Positions 7,825-21,500 of a stretch of 64,000 bases of DNA are shown here, piece by piece. The DNA lies in contig NW_004457737.1 in assembly GCF_000203815.1 (NCBI RefSeq), forward strand, positions 1,984,001-2,048,000, read 5' to 3'. Positions within the stretch are counted from its first letter, which is position 1. Each line of letters starts with the position of its first letter. A model generated the notes under the pieces. It was given only the letters and a program-made list of their open reading frames with translations. It was not told the DNA's origin and ran no database searches. Position numbers and translations under genes: made by a program. This stretch comes from Cavenderia fasciculata (lineage: Eukaryota > Evosea > Eumycetozoa > Acytosteliales > Cavenderiaceae).

Positions 7825-8118
7825 ATGAACAAGTTCACCATCTTATTAGTCGCCATCGTCGCCATGCTCTTTGTTTCAATGGCCTCTGCCACCTACGAAA
7901 TGCACTGTGGTAACTGCATCTCCAATGCTCACAACAACTATGTCAGATGTATTACCGACGGTAACTCTCACCAAAACGTAAGAAACTCTAAAAAAAAAGA
8001 ATTTATTAAATGAATCAAATCAAATCTAACACCAACCATTCTCTTTTAATATATATAGTGTCTTACCAACCTCCACAACAACCTCATGCCATGCAGATCC
8101 CACGGTTGCATTTGCTAA
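7825..8118 (+). CDS. Small secreted Cys-rich protein
   Basis: Two exons (7825-7977 and 8059-8118) give 70 residues. Residues 1-22 form a clear signal peptide: a Lys near the start, a hydrophobic core, and an ASA motif before the likely cleavage site. The mature peptide of about 48 residues holds seven cysteines, in an early CGNC pair, two single cysteines, and a C-terminal C-x4-C-x-C cluster ending the protein. Without splicing the frame would end in a Lys-rich tail, so the GT..AG intron is needed for the Cys-rich end. I do not recognise the family. Small secreted Cys-rich peptides are common in dictyostelids. An odd cysteine count would leave one free for dimerisation or for a metal. The function is unknown. 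Confidence 0.75.
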
Positions 8119-8588: not shown

Positions 8589-11500
8589 ATGTCAAATACT
8601 ATACCATCGGTCAATGATGGAGAGTCGAAGACCAAACTATTGAAATCGTTAAAGAATGAGATTATAGAACTCAAGTTGCAACAGCAGAACCACAAGACAC
8701 ACCAAGACACGTTGGAGCAGGGTTTGAAGCAGCTCGACGCTGTGCTCAAGCAGCAGGCTGGTCAGCTCAACGATGAAAAGGCGACACGTGCAAAGATCAC
8801 TGGCTGGATCAAGGATAATCTGGGACCAGACTTGTCGGTTGTCATGGAGATGGTGGAGAGTCGGTACGTTGCGTCACTCGAGGACAAGCTCAAGACGCTG
8901 TACCAGATGCTTGATCGCAAGATCCGAGACAATGAAGAGGGTGCCGAGCGCAGATACGGCAGCCAGCTGACACTGCTCACATCGCAGGTACGCGACAACT
9001 ACTCGTCTCTCAACGAGGCTGTGCGTAGTACATCGAGCACGCTGAATGAAGCGATACGCACCAACTCGAACCAAGTCAAGGACGTATCGTCTGATATGGA
9101 CGAGCGTATTCTGTCGGTGGACCAACGCATCAAGGCCACTGAAGCAGCACTCGACAAGAAGTTCTCGGCCAGTAACCTGTCATTTGACCAACGTCTACGT
9201 GCTAGTGAAGGTGTGTTTGACCAAAAACTATCGAGTACCTATGCATCGCTCGAGAGTCAGATATCAATCGGCGAATCCAACTCGGACAAGAAGTTGACCA
9301 GCTTGGGCAACTCGTTTGATACGCGTCTCATCACTGCATCCAATACACTCGATGCCCGTATTACCGCTGGGTCAACTGTGCTCGGTGCACGTCTCGACAG
9401 CGTTGTTGGCACGTTACTCCAACGTCTCGAGGGGTACAGTAAAGAGTTGCGCAGTGAATTCAACGCAGTCACCGAGAAAGAGGCTGCACGTGTAGTACGT
9501 CTCTTTGACAAGATGGCTGTAGAGATTGCACAGGTGCGATCGGCCTTTGCCGACGAGTGTCGTCGTATCGAGGAGGCTGTCGAACGTGCCTCTCAAAAGG
9601 ACCGCGAGTTTGTCACTGACCACGTGTCGACTGCTATCGCCGACCAATGGCGTAGCTCCCAACTCCCCATCGTCAACAATCTCGCCAGCACATACTCGCG
9701 CAACGAAGGAAAGCGTGTCAGCGAGGATTTGACCGTCTTTGTACGTTCCGAAATCAACCAACTTCAATTCGAGTTTGAGCAACGTCTCAAGACCGATCTT
9801 CAAAAGCTACGTTACGAGCTCACCTCACTCATCAACCAAAAGGCAGAGACACTACACGACGAACAAAAGGATTTCCTCAAACACGAACGTATTCTCCGTG
9901 AAGAAGATAGAAAATATTTGGAAGCTCTCAAACAATCCATCTTTTCATCACTCAAAGAAGCAAAGATTGAAAGAGAACAATTATCAAATCAAGTTAACCT
10001 TTTATTAAAGGAAAAGAATGATTCTGCTGGTATGTATGAAACATAAAGAAAACAACAACAACAAAACATACTTCTTGACTCTTTTATTAACCATTCCATT
10101 TGCTTATTTTAGAACTAGTATTCGAAAAACAAATGGAAAGTGGAAATACTTTACTTAAACATAATGAAGAGTTATTGTCAAAGATGGAAGAAGCTAGAAA
10201 GACACGTTTGAGAGAGATGGAGGAGAGTGAGGAAAAGATTAGAGCTCAAAAGGAACAATTGGTCCGTGAAAAGGAGGGATTGGAGCAACTCAACACCCAA
10301 CAAAAGGACAATGAGGAAAAGTTGATGTTGGAACAATTGAAACTCGAGAATCTCCAGAGAAAGAAAGAGATGGAGGAACGTAATCGTCAACGTGAAGAAG
10401 AACGTCAAAAAGAGATTGACGAACTACTTGAAAAGCAAAAGCTTGCTGAAAAGGAGTTGGAACAACACAGACGCGAGAAACAACAACACAAGGAGCAACT
10501 CGAACGTGAAGATCGTGACCGTGTCGCTAGAGACAAGGAGAGAGAAGAGGAGAAGCGTCAAGACGCCGAACGTCGTCGCAAGCAACAAGAAGAGGACTGG
10601 AAGCGCAAGGAAGAAATCTACGAAGAAGAGAGAAGAGCTGAAAAGGACCGTCAACGCGAGTTGCAAGAGCAACGTGAAGCCGAGATTGCCAAGCTCCTCG
10701 TCGAGGAAAATGAAAAGAGAAAGCAGGTAGAAGACCAGATCCGTGCTGAAAAGGAAAAGACATTGGCACTCGAAAAGGTACTCGAACAAGAGCGTGTCAA
10801 ACAAGAAGCCGAAAAGAAAGAGATCCAACAACAAAAGGAAAGAGAATTGGCCTTGCACAGACAGCAAATGGAAGAGGCAGAGACCAAGAGAAAGTTGCAA
10901 GAAGCCAGCGACAAGAAGCAACAAGACGAACAAGACAAAAAGAGACGTGACGAAGAAGACGCTGAAAAGAAGAGATTGGCAGCTGCTCAAGAAGAAATCG
11001 ACCAAAAGAGAAAACAAGAAAAGGCTGACAAAAAGAAAAAGGAGCAACAACTAGAACAAGAACAAGAACAAAAGAGAAAGCAACAAGAGGAAGAACTTGA
11101 AGAACAAAAGAGAAAACAACAACAACAAGACCTTGAAACAAAGAAAAAGGAAGAGAAAAAGGCTGAAAAGAAAAGACAATTGGAAGAACAAGAGGAAAAG
11201 GAAAAGGAAAAGGAAAGAAAGAGACAAGATGAGGCTGATAGAAAACAACAACAAGAAGAAGCTGATAGAAAGAAAAAGGAAGCTGATGCCAAACAACAAG
11301 AAAAGGAAAAGAAAAAGAGACAACAACAAGAACAAGAAGAAAAGGAGAGAAAGAGACAAGAAGAGGCTGATAGAAAGCAACAACAAGAGGAAGCTGATAG
11401 AAAGAAAAAACAAGAGGAAGAAGAGAAAAAGAAGAAACAACAACAACAACCACCAAAACAAACTCGTGGTGCCCTTCCACAAACCCCTCCTGTAAAGGAA

Positions 11501-14422
11501 ACTCCTGCTCCTATTGTCAAAGAACAACCTCAACCTGATGATGATTCTAGTGATTCCTCTTCTTCAGATAGTGAAACCGAACCAACACCAGTTGTTGTTG
11601 CTCAACCAGAGAAACCAAAACTCAAACCAGTTGTCAAGAAATCAGCTGCCAAACCTGTCGACAGTGGCTCTGAAGATGATTCTGCCGATGATTCAAGACC
11701 AACCAACAATGTCTTTAAAAAGATGGCCAAGAACAATGAAGTTCCAGAATCATTGGGTGGTGAATTGTGCAAGGTTTGCAACAAAAAGGTGTACAATACT
11801 GAACGTATCTCTGCTGAAGGTATTGTCTTCCACAAGGCTTGTTTCCGTTGTTCTATTTGCAATTGTACTTTGAAGCTTGGAAATTATGCTTCCATGCAAT
11901 CCAAATATTTCGTAAGTTTTATTAATTCTAATTATTTATTTATTAATTTAGTTTATTAACAATGATCACTGTCTATTTCTCATTTTTAGTGTAAACCATG
12001 TTTCAAAAAGAATTTCCTTTCAAAGGGTAATTATAGTGAAGGTTTTGGTGAATTGAAACCACAACATCAACATGATCTCAAGAAGGGTATTACTCACCCA
12101 GGTCTTAATCCAAGTGGTAGTGAAGATGAATCCAGTGTTCCTGTTCAACAAAAGGTTGTTGAGGTTAAAAAGGAAAAGAAGACTCCAACAACAGTTGTTA
12201 TTCCCGCCGCACCAGTCCAACAAAAAGATGAATCCGATGATGAAGAAATTATTGAAGCTCAACAATTAAAGAAGCCATCACCAGCAGCATCAGCAAAGAA
12301 ACAACAACAAGCTATTGAAAAGAAGGAGGAAAAGAAAGAAGAAAAGAAACCAGCACCAGCCAAAAAGGCCTCTTCATCATCGTCAGATGTTCAAGAGAAT
12401 CCAGATGTTGAATGTGATGTATCTGCTCCAGAATTAAGAGATGCTTGGAATGACATTCGTGATGATGCTACAGCAACCAACTGGATGCTTCTTGGTTATG
12501 GATCATTGAAAAAGACATTATCACTCTATGGATGTGGATCTGGTGGTCTCAACGAGTTACTCAAGAGTCTAAAGGATGAAGTTCAATATGGTTATCTTCG
12601 TGTTCTCTATGGTGACTCTGATCGTGCTAAATTTGTATTTTTTACGTATGTAGTGATAAATAGAAGAAAGATAATAGATAGACTTTAATACAAATACTAA
12701 TTTATTTTGATTTATTTATATTTTAGATTTGTACCAGAAACATTATCAGGAATTGCAAAGGCAAAGGCAAATATGCATAAACCACATGTTGACAAGTTCT
12801 TCAAGTATCATCATACTCAATTGCAAGTCATGTCGCGTGATGAAATTTCCATGCCAATTATTGAGGCCAAGCTCAAGGCCGCTGCCGGTGCCAACTATGG
12901 CAAGGGTACATCGCCAGACGATACCGCCAGAACCGAGAACTTTAAGGGTATCAAGGACAGCGCCAAGTTCTTTTACGACAAGACCGAGAAGACTGGTGGA
13001 AAGGCCGGAGGAGGTGGTGTTGACATTGTGTACAACAAGGGTCCACTCGGAAACGTCACTCCTGTCAGTTTGATGGGTCGTGCCGGTATCACTGAAAAGT
13101 ATATCAAGACTGATGTCAAAAAGAAAGAGGAGTTGGCCAGCAAGACCGACGGATACCGTCCCGTTGGCCGTGCTCGTGCCAGTTCAACCGCTTCAAATGA
13201 TTCATTTGTTTCAAATGACTCGTCAGACTCTGAACACAGCACAACCAGCTCCAATACTCCACCAGTTGCCGTAGCAGCCAAGGAACCAACACCTGTTGCT
13301 CAACCAGAGAAACCAAAACTCAAACCAGTTGTCAAGAAAGCTGCTGCCAAGAGTGAAAGCGAGTCGGAAGATGATGTTGCCGATGATTCAAGACCAACCA
13401 ACAATGTCTTTAAAAAGATGGCCAAGAACAATGAAGTTCCAGAATCATTGGGTGGTGAATTGTGCAAGGTTTGCAACAAAAAGGTGTACAATACTGAACG
13501 TATCTCTGCTGAAGGTATTGTCTTCCACAAGGCTTGTTTCCGTTGTTCTATTTGCAATTGTATGTTGAAGCTTGGAAACTATGCTTCCATGCAATCCAAG
13601 TATTTCTGTAAACCATGTTTCAAAAAGGTTTTCCTTTCAAAGGGCAACTATAGTGAAGGTTTTGGAGAGTTGAAACCACAACATCAACATGACCTCAAGA
13701 AGGGTATTTCTCACTCGAATCCAAGTGGTAGTGAAGATGAATCCAGTTCCAACAACAGTGTCCGTGAAGCTGAAATCAAGAGAGAAAAGGAAAAGGAAAG
13801 ACAACAACAAATCCTTCGCGAGGAAAAGGAAAAGAGGGAAAAGTTAAAGTCAAACAAAAAGACTGTTGATTCTGATCATGAAGAAGAACAACAACAACAA
13901 CAAGATGACAGTGACGATGAAAAGGAAAAGGAAAAGGAGAAAAAGATCCAACAACAACAACAACAGGAAAAGGAGAAAAAGGATCGTGAAGAAAAGGAAA
14001 AACAGGAAAAGAAGGTTGCTGCTCGTGAAGAAAAGGAGAGACAAGAGAAAAAGGCTCATGATGAAAAGCAGGAAAAGAAGGAAAAGGAACGTGAAGAAAA
14101 GATCCAACAAGAAAAGGAAAAGGAGAAACAAGAAAAAAGACAACGAGAAATTGAAAATATGGAACGTCAGAAACAAGAAGAAAAGAAGAAGCAACAAGAA
14201 AAGGAAGAAGACTCTGCTGCTGCAGTAGTCCCATCTCCAACCAAGTCATCAAGCTCTTCCAATGGTGGTGCTTCATTCTTGAGTGACTACAACAAAAAGA
14301 AGGAAACTCTTCTCAAGGGATCAGCATCCTCTTCTCCATCTGGATCCAAAGACAACAAAAAGAAAGAGTATACTTCAAGTTTATTCGCAAATGATGAAGA
14401 TGAAGATGAATTATTCAAGTAA
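8589..14422 (+). CDS. Giant coiled-coil protein with LIM, ADF-H and LIM domains
   Basis: Four exons (8589-10029, 10113-11911, 11990-12645, 12727-14422) give 1863 residues in one frame. Residues 1-480 are a helical coiled coil with repeated short motifs. Residues 481 to about 960 are a highly charged Glu/Lys/Gln/Arg coiled coil. LIM domain 1 begins near 1032 (CKVCNKKVY, then HKACFRC.IC and CKPCFKK). An ADF/cofilin-like domain of coactosin type lies near 1220-1340. LIM domain 2 begins near 1543 and is nearly identical to the first. A charged coiled coil ends the protein. Both LIM domains continue into an SKGNY.EGFGELKPQ segment, as in animal EPLIN/LIMA1. LIM and ADF-H domains act on the actin cytoskeleton, so an actin-binding scaffold is likely (inference). 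I know of no named protein with this order. Confidence 0.9.
11600..13750 (+). repeat. Internal duplication: two LIM cassettes in one gene
   Basis: Copy A spans about 11600-12136 (interrupted by the intron 11912-11989) and copy B about 13297-13750. By eye, 11683-11867 and 13378-13562 are identical over 185 bases. The flanks differ at scattered sites and by short gaps. Copy B has no intron at the matching position. The duplication covers a conserved pre-LIM linker, the LIM domain and the following His/Lys segment. Confidence 0.9.
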
Positions 14423-18566: not shown

Positions 18567-21500
18567 ATGTCCGATGCTAATCGAGGTGCTAGAAAAAGAA
18601 TGTCCAAACAGCACAATGGTTTGTTTTCAAAGTTTATGGTCACTCAATTAGATCTTACGACCTATAAACCACTACTCTCATTTAAATGGCTGCCAAAGGG
18701 AACACAAGACAGCAGGGATGAAGCAGATGAAAACAAGGTTTTACAATTCTGTTTTCCAGAATCAATAACTGTTTTGCAATCGATTATATCTAATATGTAT
18801 GTCTGGATGGATAGAGGGATTGTCTTTTTACGACAATAATATCATATATATATAGATATATATATATATAGATATAGATATTAATATTAATTTCCTTTTT
18901 TTTTTAATAGAACAACAGAACAAATCGATTACTTTTCATTTATCCTAACAAATTCATATGGTGGAAAAAGTTTTGCTTATTGTAAGAGAATTTTAAAAGA
19001 GGATCCAGTTTGTTATATTTTTATTAGTACAAAGTAAATATATATAAATATATATATAATCCAAATCAATCGATCAATCAATATCAGTCAAGATCTTTTT
19101 CTAACATTTTTATTGTTTAGACCATATTTTAGTTTATTTGATCAAATATTTACAGTGATTGAATCAAAATATGAAAGAAAAGTAAAATATAGTATCAATG
19201 CATTGTTAACGTCATTGTTGATGTTTCCACTTGATCCTACACTTTCACAGATCGAGATAAAGGCATCGGCAAACAATTCACAAACGGAAAACTATGAATT
19301 CCTATACACCAGTCCCACGACAGAGTTTGAACACATCTCTTATGAACCCATATATAATATGAAACCTGCTCACGTTATCAAACTCTATGAATCTATATTG
19401 ACCGAGTGTAGAGTCATTCTTTGTTCTTCTTCTATATCAAAAATTTCCAATTCAATTTTGGCAATATCATCTCTTGTTAATCCTTTTTCTTGGCAAGTAT
19501 GTATATAAATACAAAAAGTAGTAGAAGTAATTTAATTAAACTTTCAACTTATAATCTTTTCTTTCCTTTCCTTTCCTTTCCTTTCCTTTCCTTTCCTTTC
19601 CTTTCCTTTCCTTTCCTTTCCTTTCCTTTCCTTTCCTTTCCTTTCCTTTCCTTTCCTTTCCTTTCCTTTCCTTTCCTTTCCTTTCCTTTCCTTTCCTTTC
19701 CTTTCCTTTCCTTTCCTTTCCTTTTTGTAGCATATATTTATTTCTATATTACCAGAAGGTTTGATGCCATATGTATCAGCACCTATCCCATTTTTAGTTG
19801 GTATTTTAGAATCATCTTTGAAATCATTCTATCAACAACCGACCGAACAAGTTATTTTATATAATCTCGATAAATGCGAATTTATGATCGATCCAAACTT
19901 TAAATCTCTATTACCAGTTCATATTAATACCTATCTTGAAAATTCTTTAAAAAAGATTAAATCTGAACATCCTTCTTGTATGTCCAAAAAAGAAAAGAAA
20001 AAAGAAAAAGGAATCATCAATCATTATTAACAACAAATATTTATTTATTTATTTATTTATTTGTAAATTTAGATGATAGTGGATTTGACAAGGTAATTAG
20101 AAAACCATTTTTATCAGTTATTTATCACTTGTTTCAAAATTATCCAAAGTTTATGTTAAAGAATGGAGTATCTTATTCATTTGCCAAAGATCAATTTATT
20201 GATTCTCATTCTGGATCAAACAAAAAAGTATGAATTTAAGAAAGAAGAAGAAGAAGAATAAGTTTATTTATCAACTCTCTTTTCTATTTTTTTATTTTTA
20301 TTTTTTAGTTGATAGAAACATTAGTTTGTTCACAAATGATTGAAATGTTTTTTAATGAAAAGGAAGTTGAATTGGCAGATGCAGAGGATCCACAGCAATG
20401 TTCATTTTTATTGGGAAGTAGAGATATGGTTGATAAGATTCAAGTGACTAGTTACAAGAGACAGAGTGTATTGGATTGTCCTATTTGTATGCAATCGACA
20501 AACCACCATGCATCGATTGAATTTGCCAATTATTTGATGCATCAAGAATGCTTTAAATGCAAGACATGTGGAAGAGGATTGATGGACTTTGAGAGGGAAA
20601 AGGTGATTCTCAAGAGAAAGGATGGTGAGCGAATCCAGTTGTATTGTGCCGAATGTAGAAGTGGCACCTTCCTCAACAAGCTCAAAAACACTTCGAGCCA
20701 CTCCAAGCAAAAGATCTATAGTTTCTTTAAGAATTTGGATAGTGAGGATGTCAATTCATTCTTTTATTCGTCGCCGGCTATTCGATACTCGCGACAACAA
20801 CACCAACTCCAACAGATGCAACAACAGCTACAACAACAGACCAAAGGTGTCAACATATCGAATCCAATGCCTTTGTATGGTAGTAATGCGGCAGGTGGAT
20901 ACCCCATCATCCCCGTCAAGACAGAGATACAAAACTACAAGTTTAAGAAACCGCCTCCCAAAGATCTGGGAGGCAAGGCACTCTCGATGGGCAGACTCCA
21001 CCCTCTGCACAATGAAAAGTCGTCCACACTACCCAGCTCGTTGCACAAAACTGGCGGCTCGGCGATATTCACTCCCAAGGCACAATCGCCACCTCCCAAA
21101 ATATCGTCCTCTTCGTTTAACAAATCACTACCCGATCGACAAAAGCCACCTCTTCCTCCAACACCGAGCGAGATGAAAGAGAGAGCAGTCGAACAATTTA
21201 AACAGAAAAATATACACATTCATGGAGGATATCAACATGTTGACGGTGATCCTCCATCATCGTCGTCGTCATCTACAAATACACCAAGTATATCACCGAG
21301 CAGTTCATTTGATGAGGCGCGTCTTCACAACCATCTTGCAGCAGATACCACCAACTCGTCGGCGTCGTCGGCCAATAGTACGCCGTCCAACACACCACCA
21401 GCAACATTGTCACTCACCTATCAAATTACAAATGAGACGAGAGCGATGCAGTTCTCCAAAGCTCTTCCAGAGGTTCCCTTTTTGCCAATCAAGAAGCCTG

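Follow-up and report, generated by a model that had tools for sequence, protein, structure and literature searches.

The window analyzed here is a 64,000-nucleotide stretch of the Cavenderia fasciculata genome (contig NW_004457737.1, positions 1,984,001 to 2,048,000). It harbors a gene of four exons, whose product contains two LIM domains and one ADF-H domain (Table 1). This product is arranged as a long charged region, a LIM domain, the ADF-H domain, a second LIM domain, and a charged tail, with the LIM and ADF-H domains identified by Pfam. The spliced left unit and the right unit match the LIM profile (PF00412) with 43.5 and 42.5 bits, respectively, both above the curated cut-off of 22.9, and the right match sits in one open frame inside exon 4. 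The ADF-H/cofilin profile (PF00241) is matched over positions 2–124 of its 125 with 67.6 bits (cut-off 22.4). The long N-terminal charged region reads as coiled-coil-like, judging by its residues, and the LIM and ADF-H domains suggest a cytoskeletal, actin-binding role. Directly upstream of this gene, at window positions 7825–8118, lies what appears by eye to be a small two-exon gene for a short peptide that begins like a signal peptide.

Table 1. Features of the LIM/ADF-H gene, in window positions
Feature	Position	Strand	Description
Gene	8589..14422	+	4 exons, 3 introns, 1863 aa; spliced translation without internal stops
Exons	8589-10029, 10113-11911, 11990-12645, 12727-14422	+	stop codon included
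Intron 1	10030..10112	+	83 bp, 26.5% GC
Intron 2	11912..11989	+	78 bp, 16.7% GC, phase 0; missing in right copy
Intron 3	12646..12726	+	81 bp, 17.3% GC; within ADF-H domain, between the LIM units
Left duplicated unit (linker + LIM 1)	11579..12136	+	well-aligned part, spliced local alignment; split by intron 2
Right duplicated unit (linker + LIM 2)	13283..13747	+	local alignment; intronless, in exon 4
Identical tract, left copy	11683..11867	+	exact extension; silent-site contrast; putative gene-conversion tract
Identical tract, right copy	13378..13562	+	exact extension
Second identical block	11596..11641	+	46 bp; partner 13294-13339
Intronless junction TTC|TGT	13606..13607	+	aligns to intron 2 position; exact

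An identical tract inside a diverged duplication

Each LIM domain and the linker preceding it form a duplicated unit. The earlier note had reported that the two units share a stretch identical base for base and that similarity continues on both sides of it. Both statements hold: exact extension of the two copies gives exactly 185 bp with a mismatch at each end, and the spliced alignment of the units reaches well beyond the tract, with indels outside it. The tract spans the end of the linker and the first zinc finger of the LIM domain. When the 185 bp were searched against the 31.0-Mb genome, with the best candidates scored, they were found in two places, both in this gene. The right cassette had 9 and 36 pattern-matching stretches in the viral_contigs and genome_contigs collections, respectively, none of which was confirmed as a relative. 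The lack of a viral or prokaryotic relative is expected because the gene is eukaryotic.

We counted silent differences on the spliced codon alignment of 159 codons and found 11, all outside the tract. Specifically, the 5′ flank has four at 21.0 silent sites, the 3′ flank seven at 37.2, and the tract none at 38.2. The two flanks are alike, and dS outside the tract is about 0.22 (Jukes-Cantor). The contrast between tract and outside (0 of about 38 versus 11 of about 58 silent sites) has a Fisher P of 0.003, and that between tract and 3′ flank alone a P of 0.005; at the outside rate, the chance of seeing no silent difference in the tract is about 3e-4. Included in the tract count are both edge codons, which hold the mismatches that bound the tract; the codon at 11867 contributes to the tract and to the 3′ flank alike, and each of the four mismatches in the edge codons alters the amino acid. 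Hence, of the two origins of the identity proposed earlier, a very recent duplication is not supported by the flanks (4/21 and 7/37, dS about 0.2), and gene conversion is supported by the contrast. The identity includes silent sites, ends abruptly, and lies inside a more diverged duplicate. The simplest reading is that the tract reflects local gene conversion laid over an older duplication with a dS of about 0.2. GC3 is 0.41 in the tract, 0.43 in the right 3′ flank, and 0.29 in the left 3′ flank, which leans toward conversion from right to left, on too little data for a claim of direction.

Other accounts of the tract were also weighed. Purifying selection or chance in a recent duplicate could, with no conversion, have left 185 identical bases, and this would be compatible with any explanation of the intron. 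The tract does cover the conserved first zinc finger and the site counts are small, but we regard this account as very improbable given the absence of silent changes inside the tract. Moreover, when the 19 mismatches were shuffled 200,000 times along the 360-bp ungapped spliced alignment, a run of at least 185 identical bases arose once; the test takes sites as independent and ignores selection. The nearest LIM paralog in the genome (L047) provides a further comparison: codons for the same amino acid differ in 8 of 18 cases among the 33 tract codons and in 17 of 40 among the 50 codons beyond. Since silent positions of this stretch do vary in L047, long-term constraint on the tract DNA is unlikely. 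An antisense gene as the cause of the identity was also sought, and the longest antisense open stretches over 11600–12000 in the three frames were 93, 45, and 61 codons. That one cassette was misjoined or collapsed in the assembly is hardly credible. The identical stretches could be mistaken for one another in reads of less than 185 bp, but both sides of the tract differ between the copies by substitutions, indels, and the intron, a mosaic not expected of a collapse, and both copies belong to one open gene model with the ADF-H domain between them. Finally, right-to-left conversion may have stopped 44 bp short of intron 2, stalled by the 78-bp heterology, so that introns would act as barriers to homogenization; we consider this improbable. 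If it were true, intron loss could spread among paralogous modules by DNA conversion rather than by a cDNA each time.

Intron 2 and its counterpart in the right copy

The 78-bp intron and the uninterrupted counterpart described in the earlier note were both recovered. In the left copy, intron 2 follows a TTC codon and has GT-AG borders (GTAAGT...TTTTTAG); the right copy reads straight through TTC-TGT at the matching position and holds no remnant of the intron. If retained, intron 2 would add three in-frame stops, and to judge from the sequence it is probably spliced. One point needs correcting: the intron does not lie within the identical tract. It starts 44 bp past the end of the tract; 4 of these 44 bases differ between the copies, as do 8 of the 108 bases after the intron. 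The argument that the intron must have changed within a short time therefore falls, as the site sits in the diverged, unconverted flank. The intron difference need only postdate the duplication and not the tract, and it can be as old as the duplication; a change within the brief age of the identical tract is not supported. The intron may have blocked conversion, as had been suggested, but the tract does not show this: it ends 44 bp before the intron, and its upstream end meets divergent linker with no intron nearby.

The origin of the intron sequence was sought in several ways. The borders share 0 nt of microhomology and have no direct repeat. A genome search with the 78 bp, in which simple and very common words were skipped, matched only the intron itself, and when both strands of the rest of the gene were compared with intron 2, the longest shared word was a 10-bp AT-rich repeat. 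Neither an identifiable source nor a target-site duplication, either of which would mark an intron gain, was thus found in these searches.

We also inspected the other LIM domains of the genome for the ancestral state. The two nearest paralogs, L047 (66% identical) and the first LIM domain of L037 (53%), have no intron at the position of intron 2; plain counting on these two favors a gain on the left. The second LIM domain of L037 is split, by eye, at another place. Of 48 LIM matches in the genome, 35 (among them the right copy) cover the corresponding part of the profile without a break, starting no later than profile position 40 and ending no earlier than 53, and this too weighs against loss. 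Flanking DNA was read for 38 of the 48; the remaining ten comprise seven LIM domains in tandem on C5, the two copies described here, and a weak match at window position 20477. The last one (20477–20656) scores 22 bits, or 23 with its frame neighbors, and lies in a 733-aa open frame. Among the 38 matches read, L034 (G000:C7:866061-866201 and downstream) carries, by eye, a phase-2 intron that lies 2 nt beyond the equivalent position and splits a zinc-binding Cys codon; it may have arisen independently close to this site. With L047 as a reference, 7 of the 10 differing LIM codons could be polarized, four matching the left copy and three the right; neither copy seems to stand out as ancestral, L047 being too diverged. 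In a separate observation, L041 (G000:C13:345149-345235 and 346209-346307, minus strand) contains two LIM starts separated by about 1 kb, whose residues are identical over 28 aa and then diverge; the same 30 bases precede both starts, and they are perhaps a recent tandem duplicate.

A proposed history of the two units

The history that we favor, with a probability of about 0.55 as a whole, has three events. An older duplication within the gene would have copied a module of linker plus LIM domain, as the silent divergence of about 0.2 suggests. Conversion between the copies would later have homogenized 185 bp and ended short of the intron site. Separately, at any time after the duplication, the 3′ copy would have lost its intron precisely, most likely when a partial cDNA made from the 3′ end of the spliced mRNA recombined with the gene. 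For loss after duplication by itself, our estimate is also about 0.55, a judgement and not a computed value. What the sequence shows directly is the exact tract, its contrast with the flanks, and an intron present in one copy and precisely missing at the matching place in the other; that conversion produced the identity, that the intron was lost and not gained, and that a cDNA was involved are inferences.

Several features fit this route. The intron is missing precisely, with no indel in the exon and no microhomology at the borders, and it is missing from the 3′ copy, which lies in the last exon. The genome has 28 reverse-transcriptase (RVT_1) matches, 25 of them above the family cut-off. The 3′ position and the reverse transcriptases are consistent with the cDNA route but do not prove it. 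Five RT domains in 1424-aa frames have equal scores (G000:C7:1533499, C15:254773, C15:263854, C16:210682, and C20:284641), which suggests near-identical, perhaps recently active retroelement copies. As for base composition, nine of the 11 silent differences pair an A/T in the left copy with a G/C in the right, two have A/T in both, and none is the reverse, a 9-to-0 skew toward the right copy with a P of 0.004 if the differences are independent. GC3 is 0.62 and 0.57 in codons 1320–1440, which lie some 45 codons before the right unit, and 0.30 in the block between, so the contrast between the copies, in which counts are small, may be partly regional.

Loss has to be weighed against two other origins of the intron difference. 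After the duplication, the left copy may have acquired intron 2 at a site where both copies had until then been intronless. The intronless state of L047 and of the first LIM domain of L037 speaks for this, as do the split of the second L037 domain elsewhere and the presence of a nearby intron in L034, yet a gain seems to us unlikely, if still credible. The exon ends TTC|TGT are unlike a typical insertion site as generally understood. Gain is also far rarer than loss in the dictyostelids surveyed by Ma et al. (2015, PMC4683709). The failure to find a source or a border repeat counts against gain as well, but it weighs little because introns gained in dictyostelids, as reported in the same paper, can lack both. 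Alternatively, the right unit may have been born intronless in one step, a spliced RNA segment having been reverse transcribed and inserted into the same gene. Intron 2 is the sole intron of the duplicated unit and is exactly what the copy lacks, and the enzymes for such an event exist in the genome. It is, however, unusual for a partial cDNA to be inserted in frame into the gene that it came from, and by eye the unit ends, which lie in fast-changing linkers, have neither poly-A nor a target-site duplication; we hold this origin to be doubtful. Duplication, conversion, and a separate cDNA-mediated loss in the 3′ copy remain the reading that we favor.

Relation to known systems

Two known processes, conversion between duplicated segments and the precise loss (or gain) of an intron, are neatly illustrated at this locus, which by itself shows no new mechanism. 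Intron discordance between alignable copies in one gene offers a clean case for studies of precise loss or gain, as expression, chromatin, and neighborhood are common to both copies. It is also a warning that the identity of a converted tract is unfit for dating events in the unconverted flank. Judged by titles and the starts of abstracts, the matches listed in literature on intron loss, gene conversion, and paralogs, Dictyostelium included, contain no described case of this gene, and neither do those on LIM/ADF-H architecture in Dictyostelium. PMC3096672 deals with amylase genes.

The left LIM unit resembles LIM proteins of the CRP1 and EPLIN type, which are its best solved relatives (CRP1 1b8t, 6.7e-23; EPLIN 2d8y, 3.2e-21). 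In contrast to these, the present gene has two such LIM domains around an ADF-H domain, after a long charged region that reads as coiled-coil-like. The perfectly identical, silent-site-inclusive block within a more diverged duplication is like concerted evolution by gene conversion between duplicates; compared with that process it has nothing distinctive, the tract being short and confined to one gene.

For the intron, the closest comparison is with the survey of two Dictyostelium species by Ma et al. (2015, PMC4683709). It counts 441 and 202 precise losses (643 in total), two imprecise losses, and 40 and 58 putative gains (98 in total), some gained introns having no known source or border repeat. 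Precise cDNA-mediated loss is the main route reported for Dictyostelium. Lost introns in these species lie farther from the 5′ end, and their adjoining exons are GC-richer. That survey compares orthologs, whereas here the two copies lie within one gene and the direction of change is unproven. Border repeats, absent at intron 2, are in Dictyostelium no commoner at lost than at conserved introns (PMC4683709). The present case resembles the surveyed losses in its exact removal with no exon indel, its 3′-ward position, and the GC-richer exon beside the missing intron, and the 78 bp of intron 2 compare with lost-intron medians of 76 and 100 bp in the two species (PMC4683709).
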